A DNA stretch of 64,000 nt from Verrucomicrobiia bacterium (lineage in GTDB: Bacteria; Verrucomicrobiota; Verrucomicrobiia; Limisphaerales; JADLHS01), in contig WYBW01000025.1 of the NCBI GenBank assembly GCA_011525685.1, positions 1 to 64,000 of the forward strand. Reading direction: 5' to 3'. Shown here piece after piece: positions 14,201-30,583 of this stretch (position 1 is the stretch's first letter; each line of letters starts with the position of its first letter). The position numbers were made by a program, and so were the translations under genes. The notes beneath the pieces were generated by a model. It searched no databases. It was given only the letters and a program-made list of their open reading frames with translations, and was not told where the DNA came from.

Positions 14201-15470
14201 TCACAGTTTCGGGCGTTGGGGGGACACGAAGGTGAGGGCTTTGGCGAGGTTGCCTTCGCCCAGGTCGGCGTGGAAGTCGGTGAGTGACTTGTGCCGTGGC
14301 TTGGGTTGGTGGGCGCGCCAGTGCAGGTAAAGGCTGATGACGACCCGGCGCACCATGCCCAGAATCCACTGGCCGTTGGGATGGCGCACCCGGCAGCGGT
14401 CTTCGTTGAGCGAGATGTCCAGGCGTGGATGCGTCCCGTTTTCGATGCCCCAGGCCTGGCGGTTGGCTTGGAGATAGTCCTTGGCCCCGGGGGTCGCCGG
14501 TTCCAAATCGGTGATGAGGCCGACGGTTTCATCCCGGCGGCCGCGCCGCTGCCGCGTCAGGAGCGCCACCTAGGCGGCGAAGGGGAAGTCAATGTCCTCC
14601 GCCGCCACGGGGAGGCTCTCCAGTGTGCGGCTTTCCGCCACGCCCTTGTTCTTGCCGGCGCTCCGTGCCCGGTTGGGCGTCTGGGGTAGAGGGGGAACAA
14701 CCCGTCGGGGGGACGGGCACTTTCTGTGCGATGTTCTGGCGCAGGGTGGGCTGGTTGTTTTTCACCGTCAGCAGATAGTGCGCGCCGTGTTCGAGGACCA
14801 GCTCCCGCGCGGTTTGATCCTGGGTGTGCAGCGCGTCCAGGGCCACGGGGCGGCCGGCCAGGTCCAGTTCGCCAAAGAGTTCGCGGGCCACGGGGATCTC
14901 GTTGGTCTTGGTGTCCACCCGCGCGCTGCCCAGGTAAACTGGCTGGGGACACTGACGGCCGTGAGGAGGGACTCGCCGGGGCCGTGGCGCGGTTGCTTGC
15001 CATCCACGGCGATCAGTTCGTCGGGCGGCGGCGCGCCGCGGATCTGGGTTTGAACGTCCAACAGCACCTGGTTGAGCCGCCGGGCGTCCAGCCCGGAGAA
15101 CAGGCGGGAGAAGGTGGACTGGCTGGGGGCCGGGAAGCGGCCTTGGGCCTTGGGCCGGATGCCCAGGGCGCGGCGCTGGGGTTGCGTCAGCCGCCGGGCC
15201 AGCTTGGCCCGGTCTTTCTGGCTGCGCGGGGCGTCGCACAAGAAGGCCAGGAGCATGAGCGTCACCAGGAACCAGACCGGATAGGATTCGACCCGGACGC
15301 GATACTCGGGCAGGGCTTTGAAGTGCTCAGCCAGGGCCTGGATTTGCGCACACGTGTGATAGCACCGGCCGCCCGCTTTCTTTTCCACGGCCGCCAGCGC
15401 AGGTTTGAGGTGCTCGGTCTGGAGGCTGCGTCGGGCGTGGCGGGCGATTTCGCGGACGAACAGCCGCTTG
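14201..15470 (-). pseudogene. ISAs1 family transposase (DDE), multiply frameshifted
   Basis: The reconstructed order begins with LFVREIARHARRSLQTEHL and VEKKAGGRCYHTCAQIQALA. The DDE_Tnp_1-associated helices follow (FKALPEYRVRVESYPVWFLV), then the first catalytic acid region PPDELIAVDGK. After a frameshift near 14940 comes VDTKTNEIPVARELFGELDL and the second acid ALDALHTQDQTARELVLEHG, then LLTVKNNQPTL. After another shift near 14700 the frame reads FPFAA, then TAG where homologues have Gln, then VALLTRQRRGR and the C-terminal QAWGIENGTHPRLDISLNED. At least three lesions make it inactive. No intact copy is in the window. Confidence 0.85.
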
Positions 15471-16017: not shown

Positions 16018-16422
16018 GCCTGCGTTTCATGCCCTTCAGGGTAGAAAGTTCGGCGGCCCATGTCTCGTCAAACCGGCTTCAGCCCCATGATTCCGGGCTC
16101 AGAGCCATCTCATGCATACGCGCTGAACAGAACCGCAATTCGTGCTTTCATGGACACCCAACCTTGCTTCAGTCACGGGCAGTTGCATTAGCCGTTGGCG
16201 CAAATCATTTACAGGATGGCTTGGGCAATGTCTCCCCCATCGTGCGTCTCTCCCTTTCCGGGCCTTTTGCAACGGGGATTGTCACGAGCTCGGAATCCCA
16301 TTCTTCCTCAAGCATCCGCCCTTTGGTCACTGACGCCTCTATTGCCTCGGCGCCGGGTCAACGAGGTTGACAGCCATGCACGATGAGCCACGATGGGGGA
16401 CGGAAAGATTGCTCGAGGCTTT
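16018..16422. other. Intergenic stretch between decayed IS and UroD-like gene
   Basis: No open frame here shows family features. It must contain one end of the insertion sequence and the promoter of the UroD-like gene. I see no clear terminator, tRNA or repeat doublet. Confidence 0.5.
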
Positions 16423-17649
16423 ATGACTTCACGTGAACGAATCCTCTCCACGCTAGACCACCGCGAGCCGGATCGCATTCCGATTGACCTCTCCGGCCAT
16501 CGTTCCTCCGGCATCATGGCCGTGGCTTACGCCCGGCTGCGCGATCATCTCGGGCTGCCGAAAAGCCCCATCCGTGTCTATGATCCGGTCCAGCAACTCG
16601 CCATCGTGGATGAAGACGTGCTCCAGCGGTTTCGCGTGGACACCATCGAACTGGGCCGTGCGTTCGCGCTCGAAGACAAATGGTGGAGCGAGTGGGTCTT
16701 GCCCGACGGCTCGCCCTGCCTCATGCCTGTCTGGGCCAAGCCTGAGCGTCTCGAAGGCGAATGGGTGATCCGCTCCTCTAAGTCCAAACGGGTCATCACG
16801 CGAATGCCCGATGGTGTTATTTACTTCGAACAGACTCATTGGCCTTTCGCCGAAGAGGACAATCTCGACCGGTTGCAGGAGAAGTTGTCCGAGAGCATGT
16901 GGACCGCGATAGCCTCACCACCGGGACCGATCGTCGCCGGGCCGGACGGCATGAAGATTTTCCGCGAAGGCGCGCAACGACTGCGCCAGCAGACGGACCG
17001 CGCGATCATTGGATTGTTCGGTGGCAACCTGCTGGAGATGGGTCAGTTCCTTTATCGCAACGACAATTTCTACATGTTGCTGGCCGGCAACCCGAAGCGA
17101 GCGCACGAGTTCCTGGAGCGCGTCACCGAAATGCACCTGGCCAACCTCGAGCGTTTCCTTGGTGCAGTCGGCGAGTTCATTGACGTGATTCTCTTTGGGG
17201 ATGATCTCGGAATGCAAAGCGGCCCGCAGGTTTCGCCAAGGATGTATCGCGAGTTCTTTTTCCCGCGCGAGCAGCGAATGTGGACGCGCGCCAGGCAACT
17301 CGCGCCGCACATCAAGATCATGCTGCACTGCTGCGGCGGCGTGCGCGAACTGCTGCCCGGGCTGATCGAAGCGGGCCTCGATGCGATCAACCCGGTGCAA
17401 ATCACCTGCCGCGGCATGGACGCGGCTGGATTGAAGAGGGATTTCGGGCAGCAACTCACTTTTTGGGGCGGCGGTTGCGACACGCGCGCGGTTCTTATCG
17501 GAGGTACACCCCGGCAGGTGCGGGAACACGTTCAGCGGCAGATGGACATCTGGCGTCCGGGTGGCGGCTACGTATTTCAACAAGTCCACAACATCATGGC
17601 CGACGTGCCGCCCGCGAACATTGTAGCGATGTTGGATGCGGTAAACTGA
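16423..17649 (+). CDS. Uroporphyrinogen decarboxylase-family protein, methyltransferase-like (MtaA/UroD fold)
   Basis: From ATG 16423 (MTSRERILSTLDHREPDRIP, the usual start of this family) the protein has 408 residues. It is not HemE. It carries MLHCCGG with H302 and C304, followed by GGGC with C352, the H-x-C...C zinc-ligand pattern of the methylcobamide methyltransferases MtaA/MtbA, which activate a thiol for methyl transfer from a corrinoid. The TIM-barrel elements FGGNLLEMGQF, LFGDDLGMQSGPQVSPRMY and PGGGYVFQQVHNIMADVPP are as in the many UroD-like proteins of Verrucomicrobia and Planctomycetes. No other heme gene is near. An MtaB homologue lies 12 kb away (29177-30583). Function as a methyltransferase is inference; the substrate is unknown. 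Confidence 0.8.
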   Translation: MTSRERILSTLDHREPDRIPIDLSGHRSSGIMAVAYARLRDHLGLPKSPIRVYDPVQQLAIVDEDVLQRFRVDTIELGRAFALEDKWWSEWVLPDGSPCLMPVWAKPERLEGEWVIRSSKSKRVITRMPDGVIYFEQTHWPFAEEDNLDRLQEKLSESMWTAIASPPGPIVAGPDGMKIFREGAQRLRQQTDRAIIGLFGGNLLEMGQFLYRNDNFYMLLAGNPKRAHEFLERVTEMHLANLERFLGAVGEFIDVILFGDDLGMQSGPQVSPRMYREFFFPREQRMWTRARQLAPHIKIMLHCCGGVRELLPGLIEAGLDAINPVQITCRGMDAAGLKRDFGQQLTFWGGGCDTRAVLIGGTPRQVREHVQRQMDIWRPGGGYVFQQVHNIMADVPPANIVAMLDAVN

Positions 17650-17820: not shown

Positions 17821-20800
17821 TCACTCCAATTCAGCCCGCAGGCTGATGAGGCCATGTCCCGGAACCACCACCCGTCCGGCAAGCTGCGCGCCGGGCTGCT
17901 CGCTTGTGTCCGTCACAAACACTGCTGTTGGCTTTGCCGTGCCCCACGTGAGTTTCGCCGACTCTCTCTTTCCCGACGCGCCGAACAAACGCACGATGAT
18001 CGCCCGCCCGTCATCGCTGGGTTTGAGGCCGGTGACGACCACACCGTCGGAGTCGAGCTTGAGCAACGAGGCCTTGACCGGTTGCGCCCCGAGTGCGGGC
18101 AGTGGCAGGAACGGCTGGCTCAAGCCGGTCGCAAACCTTGTGCTCTCCGCCGGATCAGACCTGCGATACGGCCGCAGCACGAAGCGAAACCGCGTCGGGC
18201 CTTCCTGATAGGCGCGGTAGTTCGTGCCCCAATGATTGTTCATCGCCCACGAATACAGCTTCTGCGTTGGCTCGACTTCCTTGCGCCACACGTCGGGGTC
18301 GGTCTGGGAGTTCAGCAAGGTGGCCGTGATGCCACCGACCTGGACCAACGGCGCGTCGAGCGTGACCCATTGGATGCCGCAATTGCGATTAGCCACGTCG
18401 GCCCAGCGACCCACGGTGAACCAGTTCTTGCACGCGCTGGGCAGTTGATCCGCCTCGGGCCGCATTACGCCCAGCGGTAGATCGAGCCGCACATCGCCGC
18501 CGGGCACGTTGAACTCGAAGGCAAAGTTCACACTCTCTTTGGCCGCACGATTGCGATAGTCGCCCTCCGGGTGCTCAGCCTTCTTCGGGAAAGGCGCACG
18601 CTCCTTGTCGAGATCGTTGATCAACTCAACGGAGTCCATTCCCGCCACGACGCGCACTTCGCGGGTGAGTCTCCGGCAGCCGGGCGCGGCGGATTCGACG
18701 ATGAGCGAGGTGACAAGCGGACCGGGTTCGCCGACGCGGATCGTCACCGGGCCGTTGCGCTGGAGGTCTTTCAAGTCATCGGCGATGAGGTAGAGGTAGT
18801 CGTTGAGGCCGCGACCGGAACTGGTGTCGGCGAAGTTGCCCTCAATACCCTTGGCGGTGAGTTCAACAATTGCGCCGGTGGTCTCGTCGAGCCGGACGCG
18901 CAGGCGTCTTGTGTCGAGCGTGCTGCCGCTGGCCGAGGCTCGATCGGCAACGTGCGGCAAACCGGGTTGAACGGAATACCGCTTCGCACCGAACGCCGGC
19001 ACCTCGCTCGCAAGGAACACGAGTTCGCCCGAGAGCAACCGCTGCGACGGCACGGGTTTGCCGCGCTTGTCCAGCACTCGGTCGCCCGCGGGAGACAGTT
19101 CCTTTGACAAAGTCACCAGCTCGGTGCGCCGCCATGAGGTGGTGTTGATTACATCCACCGACGTGGCGGCACGGGCGTCTTGCCCAGGAGCTGGGGCAGG
19201 CATCATGCCCGCGGTTGAGTTGATTCCAACCGCCGCAGGCAGGATGCCTCCACTACGTGACAGGCTGGAAGCCTGTCCTGCTAATTCGCGCGATTGCCGA
19301 TCCGCCGCGAGCGCGTAGCCGCGTTTGATCTCCCACTGTTCCTTCGTCTCCTGCCGCTCCGGCCCCCACACGCTGCAATGCGCGCCCCACGTGTGTTCCG
19401 AGTACAGCAGCACGTTGCGCCAGGCGTCCTCGAACGCTGCGCGCGGATAGCTCCTTGGATCGAGCATCGCCCAGAGCGCTTCGGCCTGCGTCAGGCGATC
19501 CGAGCTTTCGCGGTTCATGGCCGTCTCGAGCGCCGAAGAACCCGCGCCGTCCTCCCAATAGGGTGTCCAATCGCCGCGCACGACCGGCAATTGCGCGCCG
19601 TGCCTTTCCTCGAACGCTCGGAACGCCTCGCTTACGCCGGAAATCATGAAGCGCGGCCACGCATACTTCGCGTTCCAATCCTTGACGAACTCGCAAATGA
19701 CCGGGTCGGGCACCGCGTTGTCGCCGTGGCCGCTCCAGCGCACGTGCGCGATGTCGTAGGGATAACCGCGTTGCTCCAGCCCGTCGTAGAAATCCTCCAC
19801 CAGCTTCGGAGAAAACTTTCCATAACGATGGGACATCGCGTAGCCCCAGAACGGAATCCAGACGAGCACCTTCGATTGCCCATCCGGCCCGACCCACCAG
19901 AATGGCTTGTTCTCCCACTCGCGCAGAATCGTGCCGATGCGGTCGAAGTAGTTCGGCGCCGTGTTGAAGTAACGGATGCCGGCGTGCGCCATCGCTGTCA
20001 CTGTGCCCCAAGTGTAACCCGGCACGTCGGAGATCATCACGGAATCAATCGGTCGGCCGGTTTGTTCGGCGAGTTGAGTGGCGTAACGAAACAGCCGAAC
20101 CAACTCTTCCGGCCGGCACAGCCCGGTGAGTTCGTTCAGATACATGCCGCACAAGACGACCTGACCACGCTGTACGGCGTCAAAAAACTCCGCGCGTTGC
20201 TGCGGTCCCAGGCGGCGCAGGTAAAGGTCTGCCGCCCACAGCACCTCCACGTTCCAGACGAAGCGCGAGCCTTCCGGATAACTCGCCGTCCGTTTCGCCG
20301 CCGCGATGCCGTCCACGAGATTCTGCACCTGCCGGTCTTCAATGGCCGTCTGGATTTCGGTGTAGCCGATGTCCGTGTGCGAATGAGGCAGAATGTAAAC
20401 CGTAAGCGGGCGCACGGGTTTGATTTCCGCTTCGCGCCGCGCCAGCACCTTGCCGCCGGACTCAACCGTCACCGGCACTGTAGTGTTTGAGTTTACCTGC
20501 GGCACCAGCAGTTCGACCGTGTTCACGCCTTTTTCCAGGCGAACCGTCTGTGGCGGGCTGCCGGCGATGCTGACGCTGGCGTTGGCGGGTTCGCCCACCT
20601 GCCGGAGCGAAACCATAACGGGATGAAAGAGTCTTCCTCGAACTTCCTTCAGCGCGCGAATGTTGGTGACGCCGGTGACCAGCGTCCGGTTGGCAACGGG
20701 CGCCAAAACCGCGCCCGCGGGCGCTTCGAGGGCGAGCGAATCATAGAGCATCCAACTGCCCGCCAGCGTGGTGATGGCGAGTTGGTTTTCACCGGCTCTC

Positions 20801-21345: not shown

Positions 21346-21499
21346 AACGGCGTGATTCTCCTGCCAGCCTGACTCGCGCGCAAGCCTATTGGTTTCATCA
21401 AGCGCCCACTTGATGGTCCCGCCGCGATGCGGCGCGAGTTTCCGAGTTTTTGATGTGGCCTGCCCATTCGTCAGGACGTAATCTGGCTTGGGACTTGAA

Positions 21500-22813
21500 A
21501 TGAACCTGGCCGAACAAGTCAAGCAGGCCGGCGTCGTGGGCGCGGGCGGCGGCGGCTTCCCCACACATGTCAAACTAGCTGCGAAGGCCGACACGGTCAT
21601 CGCCAACGGTGCCGAGTGCGAACCGCTCCTGCACAAGGACGCGGTCATCATGGAGCAACACGCTGCCGACCTCGTGCGCGGGATGCAACTCGCCATGGAT
21701 GCGGTCGGCGCGAAGGATGGCGTCATCGGCATCAAGGGCAAGAAGTTGCACGCCGTCGAGGCGGTGACAGCCGCGTGCAGAGGCACGAACGTCCGCATCC
21801 AGTTGCTCGGCGATTATTATCCCGCCGGTGATGAATACGATTTGGTTTACAACGTCACGGGCCGCTTGATTCCACCACAGGGCATCCCTCTCAACGTGGG
21901 CGTGGTGGTGAACAACGTGGAGACCTTCGTCAACATCACCGAGGCTGCGAAAGGCAAACCGGTCACGCACAAGACGCTCACCATCGCCGGCGCCGTGCGG
22001 GCGCCGGTGACGTTGCGCGTGCCGCTGGGCACGACGTATCGCGATTGTCTCACGGCGGCGGGCGGTTTGACCACAGATGATCCCGTGTTGGTCATTGGCG
22101 GATTGATGATGGGTCAGACTACCGACGATCTGGACACGCCCATCACCAAGACCGCGACGGGGGTGGTGATCCTGCCGCGTTCGCACCATGTCATCCAACG
22201 CAAGCTCAAGCCGAACAAGGCGCAGGCACAGATTGGCAAGTCGGCCTGTGACCAATGCCGTTACTGTACGGAGTATTGCCCGCGCTTCTTGTTGGGATAC
22301 GCGGTCGAGCCGCATCAGGTCATGCGGAGTCTGGCCTTCACGGCCACCGGCGCGGACTATTTCAACCAGTGGGCCTCCCTCTGTTGTTCTTGTGGTCTCT
22401 GCACGCTCTACGCCTGCCCTGAAGAACTGTATCCGAAAGAGGCTTGTGACGACGCCAAAGCCGTCATGCGCCGGGCCAACACGAAGTGGACCGGGCCGAC
22501 AACGGTAAAGCCCCATCCCATGCACGATGGCCGCCGCGTGCCGATCAAAACGCTCACGAAGAGACTTCACGTGCAGGATTACGATCATCCCGCGCCATTG
22601 CGCGCCGACGCAGTCTCACCGAACCGCCTCGTCCTGCCGCTCAGGCAGAGCGCCGGCACGGCCTGCCAGCCCAAGGTGCGCGTTGGCGACCGGGTGCATG
22701 CTGGTCAGATCATCGGCGAACCGTCGCCGAATGCGCTGGGTGCGGTGTTGCACGCGCCGTTGGCTGGCCGGGTGAGTGAAGTGACGGAGCACCAAATCGT
22801 TTTGGAGAGATGA
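21500..22813 (+). CDS. pduS: PduS-like corrinoid/electron-transfer protein (RnfC-type, SLBB, two [4Fe-4S])
   Basis: Flavin and Fe-S electron carrier that in propanediol microcompartments reduces cobalamin. From ATG 21500 the 437-residue protein begins MNLAEQVKQAGVVGAGGGGF, PTHVKLAAKADTVIANGAEC, the FMN/NADH-binding glycine-rich region of RnfC and PduS. A soluble-ligand-binding beta-grasp region follows (VPLGTTYRDCLTAAGG). Two ferredoxin-like clusters are visible: C250-x2-C253-x2-C256-x3-C260 and C295/C296, C298, C301, C306 with CGLCTLYACPEELYPKEAC. The C-terminus is a lipoyl-like hairpin (VRVGDRVHAGQIIGEP). The CTEYCPRFLLGY and YPKEAC wording is PduS-like rather than Rnf-like, and no rnf genes are near. 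It is paired with the PduT homologue 516 bp downstream. Confidence 0.87.
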   Translation: MNLAEQVKQAGVVGAGGGGFPTHVKLAAKADTVIANGAECEPLLHKDAVIMEQHAADLVRGMQLAMDAVGAKDGVIGIKGKKLHAVEAVTAACRGTNVRIQLLGDYYPAGDEYDLVYNVTGRLIPPQGIPLNVGVVVNNVETFVNITEAAKGKPVTHKTLTIAGAVRAPVTLRVPLGTTYRDCLTAAGGLTTDDPVLVIGGLMMGQTTDDLDTPITKTATGVVILPRSHHVIQRKLKPNKAQAQIGKSACDQCRYCTEYCPRFLLGYAVEPHQVMRSLAFTATGADYFNQWASLCCSCGLCTLYACPEELYPKEACDDAKAVMRRANTKWTGPTTVKPHPMHDGRRVPIKTLTKRLHVQDYDHPAPLRADAVSPNRLVLPLRQSAGTACQPKVRVGDRVHAGQIIGEPSPNALGAVLHAPLAGRVSEVTEHQIVLER

Positions 22814-22849
22814 GGTGATGAACGTGACCTGGAAATGTGGTATGCGGCG

Positions 22850-23008
22850 CTCTCCCTCTCCCCGGCCCTCTTCCGCTGGGATAGGGAGAATGTTTCTCCG
22901 ATTAACCGACTGTGGGAAGAGTGGATTTGCCGAATGCTCGTCCGCAGTACGTGAAGCGTACGAGTGCTGTTCCCTCTCCCAGCGGGAGAGGGCAAGGGTG
23001 AGGGAGAA
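22850..23008. repeat. REPIN-like repeat, family 2, copy B
   Basis: Left end CTCTCCCTCTCCCCGGCCC.. with TTCCGCTGGGA; right end CCCTCTCCCAGCGGGAGAGG then GGTGAGGGAGAA. Same length and mirrored arrangement as copy A. It lies between pduS and pduT. Confidence 0.85.
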
Positions 23009-23098
23009 AGGTCCGAGACGCCGATGCCCGCGGACTCGGAGGACTCTTTTTCCATTTGCATCCTTCAGGCACAGGGAGCGGCTTTGCTATTCGTGCAG

Positions 23099-23258
23099 TT
23101 CCCCCTCACCCCGGCCCTCTTCCGCTGGGAGAGGGAGAATCGTTCGCGGATTGACCGCATGTCCAAAGTCTGAGTTCGTCCAAAGGTCCAAGGCAAAGTT
23201 CGAGTTGGCTGGCCGGTGTTCCCTCCCCCGGCGGGAGAGGGTAAGGGTGAGGGGGAAT
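23099..23258. repeat. REPIN-like repeat, family 2, copy C
   Basis: Left end CCCCTCACCCCGGCCCTC with hairpin TTCCGCTGGGAGAGG; right end CCCGGCGGGAGAGGGTAAGG then GTGAGGGGGAA. It is separated from copy B by 90 bp, so two full elements lie in tandem in the pduS-pduT gap, together filling nearly the entire 516 bp. Confidence 0.85.
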
Positions 23259-23329
23259 TCAACGATGTCCAACCAACGAGCGAAACTCTGCCAGCCATTG
23301 GCAAACGAATCCAATTTCCCTCTTAACTT

Positions 23330-23881
23330 ATGCCCGAAAAGTCCATTGGCTTGATTGAACTCTCGAGTGTCGCCTCCGGCTTTGAGGTGGCCGACACCAT
23401 GCTCAAGGCCGGCAATGTGCGCCTGCTGCTCTCGCGCTCGATTTGCTCCGGCAAATACATGGTGCTCATCGGCGGCGAAACTGCCGCAGTGGAAGCCGCC
23501 GTGCAGGCCGGCGCGGAAGCGGCCAACGGTTGTCTCATTGACAGTTTCACCATCGCGAACGTGCATCCGGATGTGTTTGTCGCTCTCAGCCGCACACAGC
23601 CGGTTCAACCGGACGGTGCGCTGGGCATCCTCGAATCGTTCAATGTCGCGACTCTGATTCAGGCGTCCGATGCCGCCGCCAAAACGGCAGCGGTTCAACT
23701 TCTCGAAATTCGCCTGGCGATGGCGCTGGGCGGAAAGGCGTTTTGCACGATGACCGGTGACGTGGCCTCCGTCCAGGCTGCCGTGGGCGCCGGTCGCAGA
23801 GTGATTGCCGACGCGGGTGTGTTGGTAAACGCCGTCGTGATTTCGCGACCGCACCCCGATGTGTATCGCGAGGTCGTTTAG
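23330..23881 (+). CDS. pduT: PduT-like microcompartment shell protein (tandem BMC domain, putative Fe-S)
   Basis: A 183-residue protein with two bacterial microcompartment domains in tandem. Domain 1 runs from SIGLIELSSVASGFEVADTM, domain 2 from GALGILESFNVATLIQASDA. Such BMC-T proteins form flat pseudohexameric trimers in protein shells. Domain 1 holds SICSGKYMVLIGGE, placing Cys39 where PduT has the cysteine (Cys38) that binds one [4Fe-4S] cluster at the trimer pore. DSFTIANVHPDVF is a typical link between the domains. Together with PduS it would form an electron relay through a shell facet. No BMC-H, BMC-P or encapsulated enzyme gene is in the window. The stop overlaps the convergent ThuA gene by 4 bp. 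Confidence 0.9.
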   Translation: MPEKSIGLIELSSVASGFEVADTMLKAGNVRLLLSRSICSGKYMVLIGGETAAVEAAVQAGAEAANGCLIDSFTIANVHPDVFVALSRTQPVQPDGALGILESFNVATLIQASDAAAKTAAVQLLEIRLAMALGGKAFCTMTGDVASVQAAVGAGRRVIADAGVLVNAVVISRPHPDVYREVV

Positions 23882-29176: not shown

Positions 29177-30583
29177 TCACTTTCCCACCTGCAACCCGTA
29201 CTCCTCCGGCAGGAACACACCTGGCTCAATTGTCGCCAACATCTCCCCGATGAACGCAGCCTCGCTCTCCGGCAAGGCATCCGCCTGGCGCTGGAGCAGG
29301 TCGAGCCAGCGGACTTCGCGCGCGGCGATTTTCACGTCACCAGCCTGATGCGCCCGCCGAAGTTCATCCAGCACCACCAGCACCGCGCGGCGCGTCCGCA
29401 GATAAGGAGTCTTCTCCGCGATAATCTGTTGCGAAAGCCGCAGCACCACGTCCGGGCGCAACACGAATGCCTGCGGATCGAGCGCCGCGTCGGATTCCAC
29501 CAGCCAGTCACGCAACCGATTCGCCTCATTCCGCCCTTTCGAGAGCGCGGTGTTCATCAAACGGCAATCGTAAGCCAGTTGTTCCAGACTTACGGTCGGC
29601 GCCGGCCCGCTGAGCAGCCGCACGTTTTGCACCGACTCGTTCGACCAACAGTCGCACACGGCTTGCGCAATGTTACCCACCGGACTCAGGTGGGCGCACG
29701 CCGCCGACCGGCCCTCCATCGAAATGGGCACGCCCGCAATGGCTTTCATGTACGGCCCTTCATAAGCGCAGTCCTTGCTTGGACCCACCGCGCCCATCTC
29801 GTAGGCGACCAGACTTCGCGGCACGGTGGCCACGCGAACCACCGCGGCAAACAGGCGCGGGATCATCTTCTGCTCGGCCAGCACCATCGCCGTGTTGGCA
29901 AAGCCGCAGGCTGTGTCGCCTGCAGGCACGATGTTGTTTTGGCGGCATAAGGTCACCAGTTTGCCCCAGAGAAACTCCATGTCCCGCGCGCCCAGCACGC
30001 CCAGGGCAAAAACCACTCCGCGCAAGTCCGCGTTCATCAACGCGGCATCGTTCACTTCCTTGCCGCCCGTGGATTCTATGGCCAGCAGGTCCGCGCCCGC
30101 GCCCGCCGCCGACTCGAACAACCGCACCATGCCCTCCCAATACGGTCCGCGCCGCATGAGCGCCGGGCGTTCATGATCACGATTGTCATTCGGCGTGAGG
30201 CGCAGGGCGGCCTTGAGTCCATGCTTCTCGTGATACTGACGCAAAGCGCCAGCCAGAATGTCCGTGATCTCGGCGCCCCACTCCGGCCGCACGGTCATGG
30301 GCGGCAGGGTCTCGAATTCCACCAGCAACCCGGGTACTTCCAGTTCGACCGCGCGACGGCAGACGCCGTTGATCATCTCCTCGTATTGCCGGCGCACCTC
30401 GGGCCAGGTGTCCTCGTTGATGTCCATCGGCGGCAGCGTGAAGTTGATTTCGGGAATCACCGTGCCACTACCAAACACCAGGCCGCGTCCGCAGGCGACC
30501 GGCCTTGGCGCGACGCCGAAGCAAAAGTCATCCAGCGTGGAGATTGCCGGCCGTTTGGAACTTTCAACATCCAGTGAGTTCAT
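29177..30583 (-). CDS. MtaB-like corrinoid methyltransferase (methanol-type, zinc)
   Basis: Homologue of methanol:corrinoid methyltransferase subunit MtaB, which moves a methyl group from a methyl donor to Co(I) of a corrinoid protein. The 468-residue length matches. The zinc ligands E164, C220 and C269 known for Methanosarcina MtaB have clear counterparts: E170 in LLAIESTGGKEV, C226 in AGDTACGFANT and C272 in PSKDCAYEGP (the first two with identical spacing of 56). Conserved stretches include GVLGARDMEFLW, WSNESVQNVRLL and LEQLAYDCRLMN. No MtaC corrinoid-protein gene is adjacent. In bacteria the natural donor may be methanol or another methyl compound; a UroD-type partner lies at 16423-17649. 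Confidence 0.88.
   Translation of the reverse strand: MNSLDVESSKRPAISTLDDFCFGVAPRPVACGRGLVFGSGTVIPEINFTLPPMDINEDTWPEVRRQYEEMINGVCRRAVELEVPGLLVEFETLPPMTVRPEWGAEITDILAGALRQYHEKHGLKAALRLTPNDNRDHERPALMRRGPYWEGMVRLFESAAGAGADLLAIESTGGKEVNDAALMNADLRGVVFALGVLGARDMEFLWGKLVTLCRQNNIVPAGDTACGFANTAMVLAEQKMIPRLFAAVVRVATVPRSLVAYEMGAVGPSKDCAYEGPYMKAIAGVPISMEGRSAACAHLSPVGNIAQAVCDCWSNESVQNVRLLSGPAPTVSLEQLAYDCRLMNTALSKGRNEANRLRDWLVESDAALDPQAFVLRPDVVLRLSQQIIAEKTPYLRTRRAVLVVLDELRRAHQAGDVKIAAREVRWLDLLQRQADALPESEAAFIGEMLATIEPGVFLPEEYGLQVGK

Follow-up and report, generated by a model that had tools for sequence, protein, structure and literature searches.

The window, a 64,000-nucleotide stretch of the genome of a Verrucomicrobiia bacterium, carries a pduS-like gene followed by a pduT-like gene. 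Judging from gene content and linkage across genomes, this pair very probably constitutes a satellite locus of the PVM-type (Planctomycetes-Verrucomicrobia, fucose/rhamnose) microcompartment whose genes lie on another contig of this genome; the products of the pair probably relay electrons of lumenal NADH outward. The two genes are arranged head to tail on the plus strand, with the following features.

21500..22813 (+): pduS-like gene, 437 aa, of the NADH/FMN/2x[4Fe-4S] oxidoreductase type, with four Pfam domains
21518..21940 (+): Complex1_51K, NADH/FMN-binding domain, PduS residues 7-147 (PF01512, E 1.3e-46)
22244..22429 (+): 4Fe-4S dicluster domain, PduS residues 249-310 (PF13534, Fer4_17, 2.8e-14)
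22610..22801 (+): RnfC_N barrel-sandwich hybrid domain at the C-terminus of PduS (PF13375, E 4.3e-14)
22814..23329 (no strand): enlarged gap between pduS and pduT, holding two elements of ~158 bp with inverted-repeat ends
23330..23881 (+): pduT-like gene for a tandem-BMC (BMC-T) shell protein, 183 aa, with two PF00936 domains above the cut-off
23444..23446 (+): codon of Cys39, the predicted pore ligand of the trimer [4Fe-4S] cluster, in the motif LSRSICSGKY; it aligns with Cys38 of PduT

We set the start of the pduS-like gene at the ATG at position 21500, and an in-frame TTG at 21488 is also possible. The Pfam search recovered an SLBB domain in addition to Complex1_51K, Fer4_17 and RnfC_N, and the PduS homologue thereby matches the composition of four domains described for PduS, namely Complex1_51K, SLBB, 4Fe-4S dicluster and RnfC_N (PMC6325248). 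Two cysteine motifs, C250xxC253xxC256xxxC260 and C295xxC298xxC301xxxxC306, were found together with the RnfC_N domain, in agreement with the original prediction of two ferredoxin-type clusters and an RnfC-like region, and the eight cysteine columns were conserved in 36-37 of 37 sequences in the orthologue alignment. Among solved structures, RnfC chains were the nearest to the PduS homologue. The structure model was closest to RnfC in overall fold and of low confidence over the dicluster region, and we used it for the overall RnfC-like fold only.

The PduT homologue was aligned with solved PduT chains with E-values of 8e-40 (3n79) and 5e-49 (3nwg). Its AlphaFold model (pLDDT 91) superposed on 3nwg of Desulfitobacterium with a TM-score of 0.93 and on the PduT structures 3pac and 3n79 with a TM-score of 0.88. 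Cys39 was aligned with the residue changed in 3n79, which is the C38S mutant of PduT, and was invariant among all of the intact PduT orthologues spanning that position; both observations bear out the claim that the pore cysteine is kept. Altogether, the tandem BMC domains, the BMC-T fold and the pore cysteine by which a PduT shell protein is recognized were all present. On the other hand, the protein scored 128.6 bits against the cut-off of 250.3 bits of the NCBIfam PduT equivalog TIGR02526, and we therefore term it PduT-type.

No shell gene other than pduT was detected on the 92-kb contig of the window by searching with the PF00936 and BMC-P profiles. Genome-wide, shell genes were confined to contigs C77 and C195: there were five PF00936 domains, of which three were BMC-H on C77 and two were the halves of the PduT homologue in the window, and three BMC-P genes, all on C77. 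The genes on C77 were ordered as DeoR (minus strand), PduL, BMC-H, BMC-H, AckA, BMC-H, BMC-P, cupin, AldDH, BMC-P, BMC-P and class II aldolase, followed by a conserved protein of 434 aa and by citrate synthase, the last recognized by eye from the sequence. A main PVM locus is defined by a class II aldolase (PF00596), AldDH, DeoR, PduL, acetate kinase and more than one BMC-P, and each of them was found on C77. Thus, C77 carries a complete PVM locus of the gene set published for fucose/rhamnose degradation (PMC4207490), albeit with neither pduS nor pduT. The lactate/malate dehydrogenase (LDH) of PVM was found neither in this locus nor, at E<=1e-40, anywhere in the genome. L-rhamnose isomerase RhaA was encoded on C155. 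The 434-aa protein (18316-19620 of locus L009 on C77) had no Pfam, NCBIfam or PDB sequence match, and most of the PVM loci in the order encode it next to LDH or the aldolase.

A satellite BMC locus comprises shell genes that do not suffice to build a shell (PF00936 alone or PF03319 alone) in a genome with a complete locus elsewhere (Axen 2014). Here, PduT stands alone on its 92-kb contig, and the PVM locus with both BMC-H and BMC-P lies on C77. The original prediction described the pair as an orphan with no microcompartment operon in view, which holds for the window; the label fails at the level of the genome, as the search for BMC-H and BMC-P genes that it proposed returned the complete locus on C77. 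Second copies of the two genes in a full locus nearby, which it named as evidence against itself, were not found: pduT had no second copy in a whole-genome search, and the matches to PduS other than the gene in the window were weak and partial, at 32-34% identity.

We then surveyed the pair in relatives, another of the checks proposed, in 196 genomes of the order (the named relatives are labelled as Verrucomicrobia subdivision 3, Limisphaerales or Pedosphaerales). A PduT orthologue was detected in 38 of them, including one with a broken, frame-shifted pair (G049), and PduS was adjacent wherever the contig allowed. The PVM AldDH was found in 35/38 genomes with PduT and 89/158 without (p=2e-5). 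In six genomes of the order, the pair lay beside the PVM locus, and in G083 it was located ~57 kb from the PVM locus on the same contig. These PVM-adjacent pairs and that of G083 formed a single clade nested inside the satellites. G097 is a closed genome in which ~2 Mb separate the PVM locus (at 0.13 Mb) from the pair (at 2.14 Mb); the detachment is therefore not merely a matter of contig breaks. A scan of named genomes yielded 80 loci from Limisphaerales, Opitutae, Akkermansiaceae, Spartobacteria, Acidobacteriota, Latescibacterota and others. PduS was next to PduT in 78 of these, the remaining two being cut by a contig end, and in 26 the pair adjoined a BMC locus, either PVM-type or other; two further BMC-adjacent pairs, L123 and L124, came from the phylum search. 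The BMC-adjacent pairs took at least three arrangements, namely behind DeoR, behind the aldolase and in front of PduL. No other evidence speaks as strongly for a putative function shared by the pair and the PVM as this linkage, which recurs in different positions. The suggestion of a satellite belonging to a distant BMC locus is thus well founded in both the PVM locus without pduS and pduT on C77 and the PVM-linked orthologous pairs in many relatives. In G049 (L079, 9484-11164), pduS and pduT are decaying, with frame-shifts and stops, and the AldDH type (see below) is retained; G086, a genome of the same genus with 86% completeness, also retains the AldDH type, and no PduT was found in it.

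Around the pair in the window, the neighbours were a GH38 enzyme, ThuA, an SSS symporter and Gfo/Idh/MocA, as had been stated. We rejected a conserved satellite context, as the sister genome G130 was the only one to keep GH38, a URO-D-family gene was shared with G130 and G119 alone, and the remaining matches were scattered and weak. The gap between pduS and pduT was 519 bp in the window, 269 bp in G130 and 2-44 bp in most relatives. It contains two copies of the ~158-bp element (22851-23008 and 23100-23257), which are spaced by 249 bp and end in inverted repeats of 37-46 nt; the difference from G130 amounts to approximately one unit. Some of the other genes in the window are recorded here as separate observations. 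A URO-D-family gene (PF01208, a family that includes corrinoid methyltransferases too) at 16393-17649 (+) was also found near the pair in G130 (88%) and G119 (69%). An MtaB-family methanol:cobalamin methyltransferase gene lies at 29177-30583 (-) (PF12176, E 1.6e-165), with no obvious corrinoid-protein gene among the neighbours checked, and a copy with 74% identity occurs near the pair in G152. The ORFs at 14600-15400 (-) resemble, on reading by eye, a broken or frame-shifted transposase.

In the published models of the PVM, NAD+ is regenerated by reducing a second lactaldehyde, with LDH as the predicted enzyme. We propose a different course for the organelle of this genome. PduT would form some of the PVM shell facets and hold a [4Fe-4S] cluster in its pore, and PduS would be encapsulated and docked on the lumenal face of PduT. 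AldDH of the PVM would convert lactaldehyde into lactyl-CoA and yield lumenal NADH, which PduS would oxidize, and the electrons would leave via FMN, both PduS clusters and the pore of PduT for an acceptor in the cytosol. Lumenal NAD+ could then be regenerated without spending lactaldehyde on reduction to 1,2-propanediol. We know of no PVM lumenal enzyme that needs low-potential electrons or reducing power from outside, and export is thus the simplest direction; we lean towards outward flow as the mechanism, a little less firmly than towards the explanation as a whole. Of the original suggestion of a redox conduit used differently, what stands is a likely role inside the PVM organelle, with neither B12-dependent nor glycyl-radical lumenal partners. 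The proposal has precedents, as PduS, a flavo-Fe-S protein that oxidizes NADH, binds PduT in Citrobacter and an exit of electrons via PduT was proposed for the Pdu microcompartment (PMC2982820), and likewise for the organelles of Bilophila (PMC8667426).

Satellite shell proteins have generally been proposed to tune permeability (PMC8217296), and the PduT-type protein might accordingly serve mainly to alter the permeability of the shell, its redox cofactors being incidental. We consider this unlikely, because orthologues down to 58-66% protein identity retained Cys39 and the eight PduS cluster cysteines with hardly an exception and PduS was always kept alongside PduT, both of which point to redox work.

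The electron relay predicted above is consistent with the distribution of other PVM genes. LDH, usually encoded after the PVM aldolase, was found in 5/35 PVM genomes with the pair versus 41/89 without (Fisher p=9e-4). Both LDH and the pair were present in G012, G046, G100, G152 and G171, as well as in the named loci L159 and L202, and approximately half of the PVM genomes without the pair were also without LDH; the swap is therefore not strict. The PVM AldDH sequences fell into two types. Among the genomes with an AldDH at least 69% identical to that of the genome studied here, 26/30 possessed the pair, compared to 9/94 of the rest (p=3e-15; the threshold of 69% was chosen after the data were seen). 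The AldDH type changed 11 times on a tree built from nine PVM proteins other than AldDH and twice on the AldDH tree. The genus of the window genome together with G047 grouped with G108 and G165, both lacking the pair, in the tree of the rest of the locus, but with satellite-bearing genomes in the AldDH tree, on which the core-locus placing was rejected (p-AU 1e-8). The AldDH gene has thus been exchanged inside an otherwise stable PVM locus. In terms of gene content, the pair goes with the AldDH allele although the two are unlinked. A Cys-rich N-terminus of AldDH as the direct electron partner of PduS was considered and rejected, as the Cys pair 44/46 occurs in both AldDH types.

In independent pairs on the core tree, the pair and LDH were opposite in ~3.4 of 10 and the same in 0.1, while the AldDH type and the pair were the same in ~4.1 of 6 and opposite in 0.3. 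The sign tests ran in the expected direction, mostly without reaching 0.05; thus, both associations keep their direction after correction for phylogeny but lack power. We tentatively suggest that the PVM may come in two redox versions. In the closed version, LDH would regenerate NAD+ by reducing lactaldehyde; in the wired version, the electrons would be exported by PduS and the pore cluster of PduT. The wired version would travel as a module of two unlinked parts, the satellite pair and the matching AldDH allele of the main locus, and be used mainly by anaerobic Verrucomicrobia.

The pair might instead feed electrons to the activating enzyme of a glycyl-radical enzyme, as has been proposed for GRM organelles. 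The genome encodes two glycyl-radical enzymes on C176, one of which is HpsG-like with 998.4 of the 1000 cut-off bits, and such enzymes were enriched in the genomes with the pair (18/38 versus 10/158, p=1e-8). Nevertheless, no shell gene was found on C176, and a GRM requires a glycyl-radical enzyme encoded with shell genes. The two glycyl-radical enzymes identified from relatives were trans-4-hydroxyproline dehydratases, with no shell genes seen by eye in their regions. Furthermore, glycyl-radical enzymes were found in none of 20 of the 38 genomes with the pair, including the six with PVM-adjacent pairs, G083 of their clade and the sister G130. Glycyl-radical enzymes are a mark of anaerobic life, and a shared anaerobic habit accounts better for the association; this reading is quite improbable. 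The two enzymes on C176 are those at 4141-6687 of L236 and on L220, HpsG being (2S)-3-sulfopropanediol dehydratase; the gene neighbours of the C176 enzymes are unusual, with similar ones in G015, G100 and G120.

It is just as improbable that PduS takes the place of LDH in the lumen and turns lactaldehyde into propanediol by its own activity. The depletion of LDH where the pair is present would fit this activity, which was suggested for a PduS homologue in GRM5 (PMC4207490), but PduS possesses no alcohol-dehydrogenase-like domain, and the activity would not account for PduS always being paired with a shell protein that binds a cluster. Least probable of all is the classical role, in which PduS would reduce the corrinoid of a B12-dependent enzyme and PduT would serve as its anchor. 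Reduction of cobalamin is known for Citrobacter PduS (PMC2982820), and the MtaB-like gene is ~5 kb from the pair with a relative near the pair in G152, but that linkage was seen in two genomes only while linkage to BMC loci recurs in dozens, no B12 enzyme was recognized in the PVM locus on C77, and the genome had no match to the large subunit of B12-dependent diol dehydratase (PF02286; control genomes gave none either, so that this search is uninformative).

Tandem direct repeats of ~10 bp, AGATNNTGNN, were found before pduL (L009 10840-10925; C77 18839-18924), and most PVM loci in the order carry related tandem repeats ahead of this gene. They likely represent a DeoR-family operator. No operator of the AGATNNTGNN type was detected upstream of the satellite pduS genes, in the window or elsewhere in its genome, and a DeoR operator common to the PVM promoter and pduS was rejected on this ground. 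The satellite pair may be expressed independently, for instance according to oxygen.

Compared with known systems, the locus on C77 has the same set as the PVM of the Planctomyces limnophilus type for aerobic use of L-fucose/L-rhamnose (DeoR, PduL, AckA, aldolase, AldDH, BMC-H and three BMC-P), but differs in lacking LDH in both locus and genome, in encoding PduS and PduT separately and in its distinct AldDH allele. The pair resembles PduS-PduT of the Pdu systems of Citrobacter and Salmonella in domain make-up, the two cluster motifs, the pore cysteine and the BMC-T fold; in contrast, PduT is ~39% identical and under the equivalog cut-off, the pair is a unit of its own outside a large operon, and no diol dehydratase was matched (with the uninformative controls noted above). 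A tandem pduS-pduT is shared with GRM-type/isethionate systems (GRM5, Bilophila), and the organelle of Bilophila has no alcohol dehydrogenase for lumenal NAD+ (PMC8667426, PMC6325248). Unlike in those systems, the pair here is a satellite, and the PVM aldolase takes the place of a glycyl-radical enzyme as the signature enzyme.

Both the components and the satellite concept are already known. In the open literature, BMC-catalogue supplementary tables aside, we came across neither a PduS-PduT satellite of the PVM nor the AldDH swap. The passage of electrons across microcompartment shells through Fe-S clusters was proposed more than 15 years ago and has been considered mostly for B12-dependent and glycyl-radical systems. 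The lumen chemistry of the PVM is simpler, making the export of electrons from AldDH a plain reading that is directly testable. If this is true, the addition of two unlinked genes would have adapted a catabolic organelle to anaerobic life, and the pair would be a marker for Verrucomicrobia that use fucose/rhamnose without losing half of the lactaldehyde.
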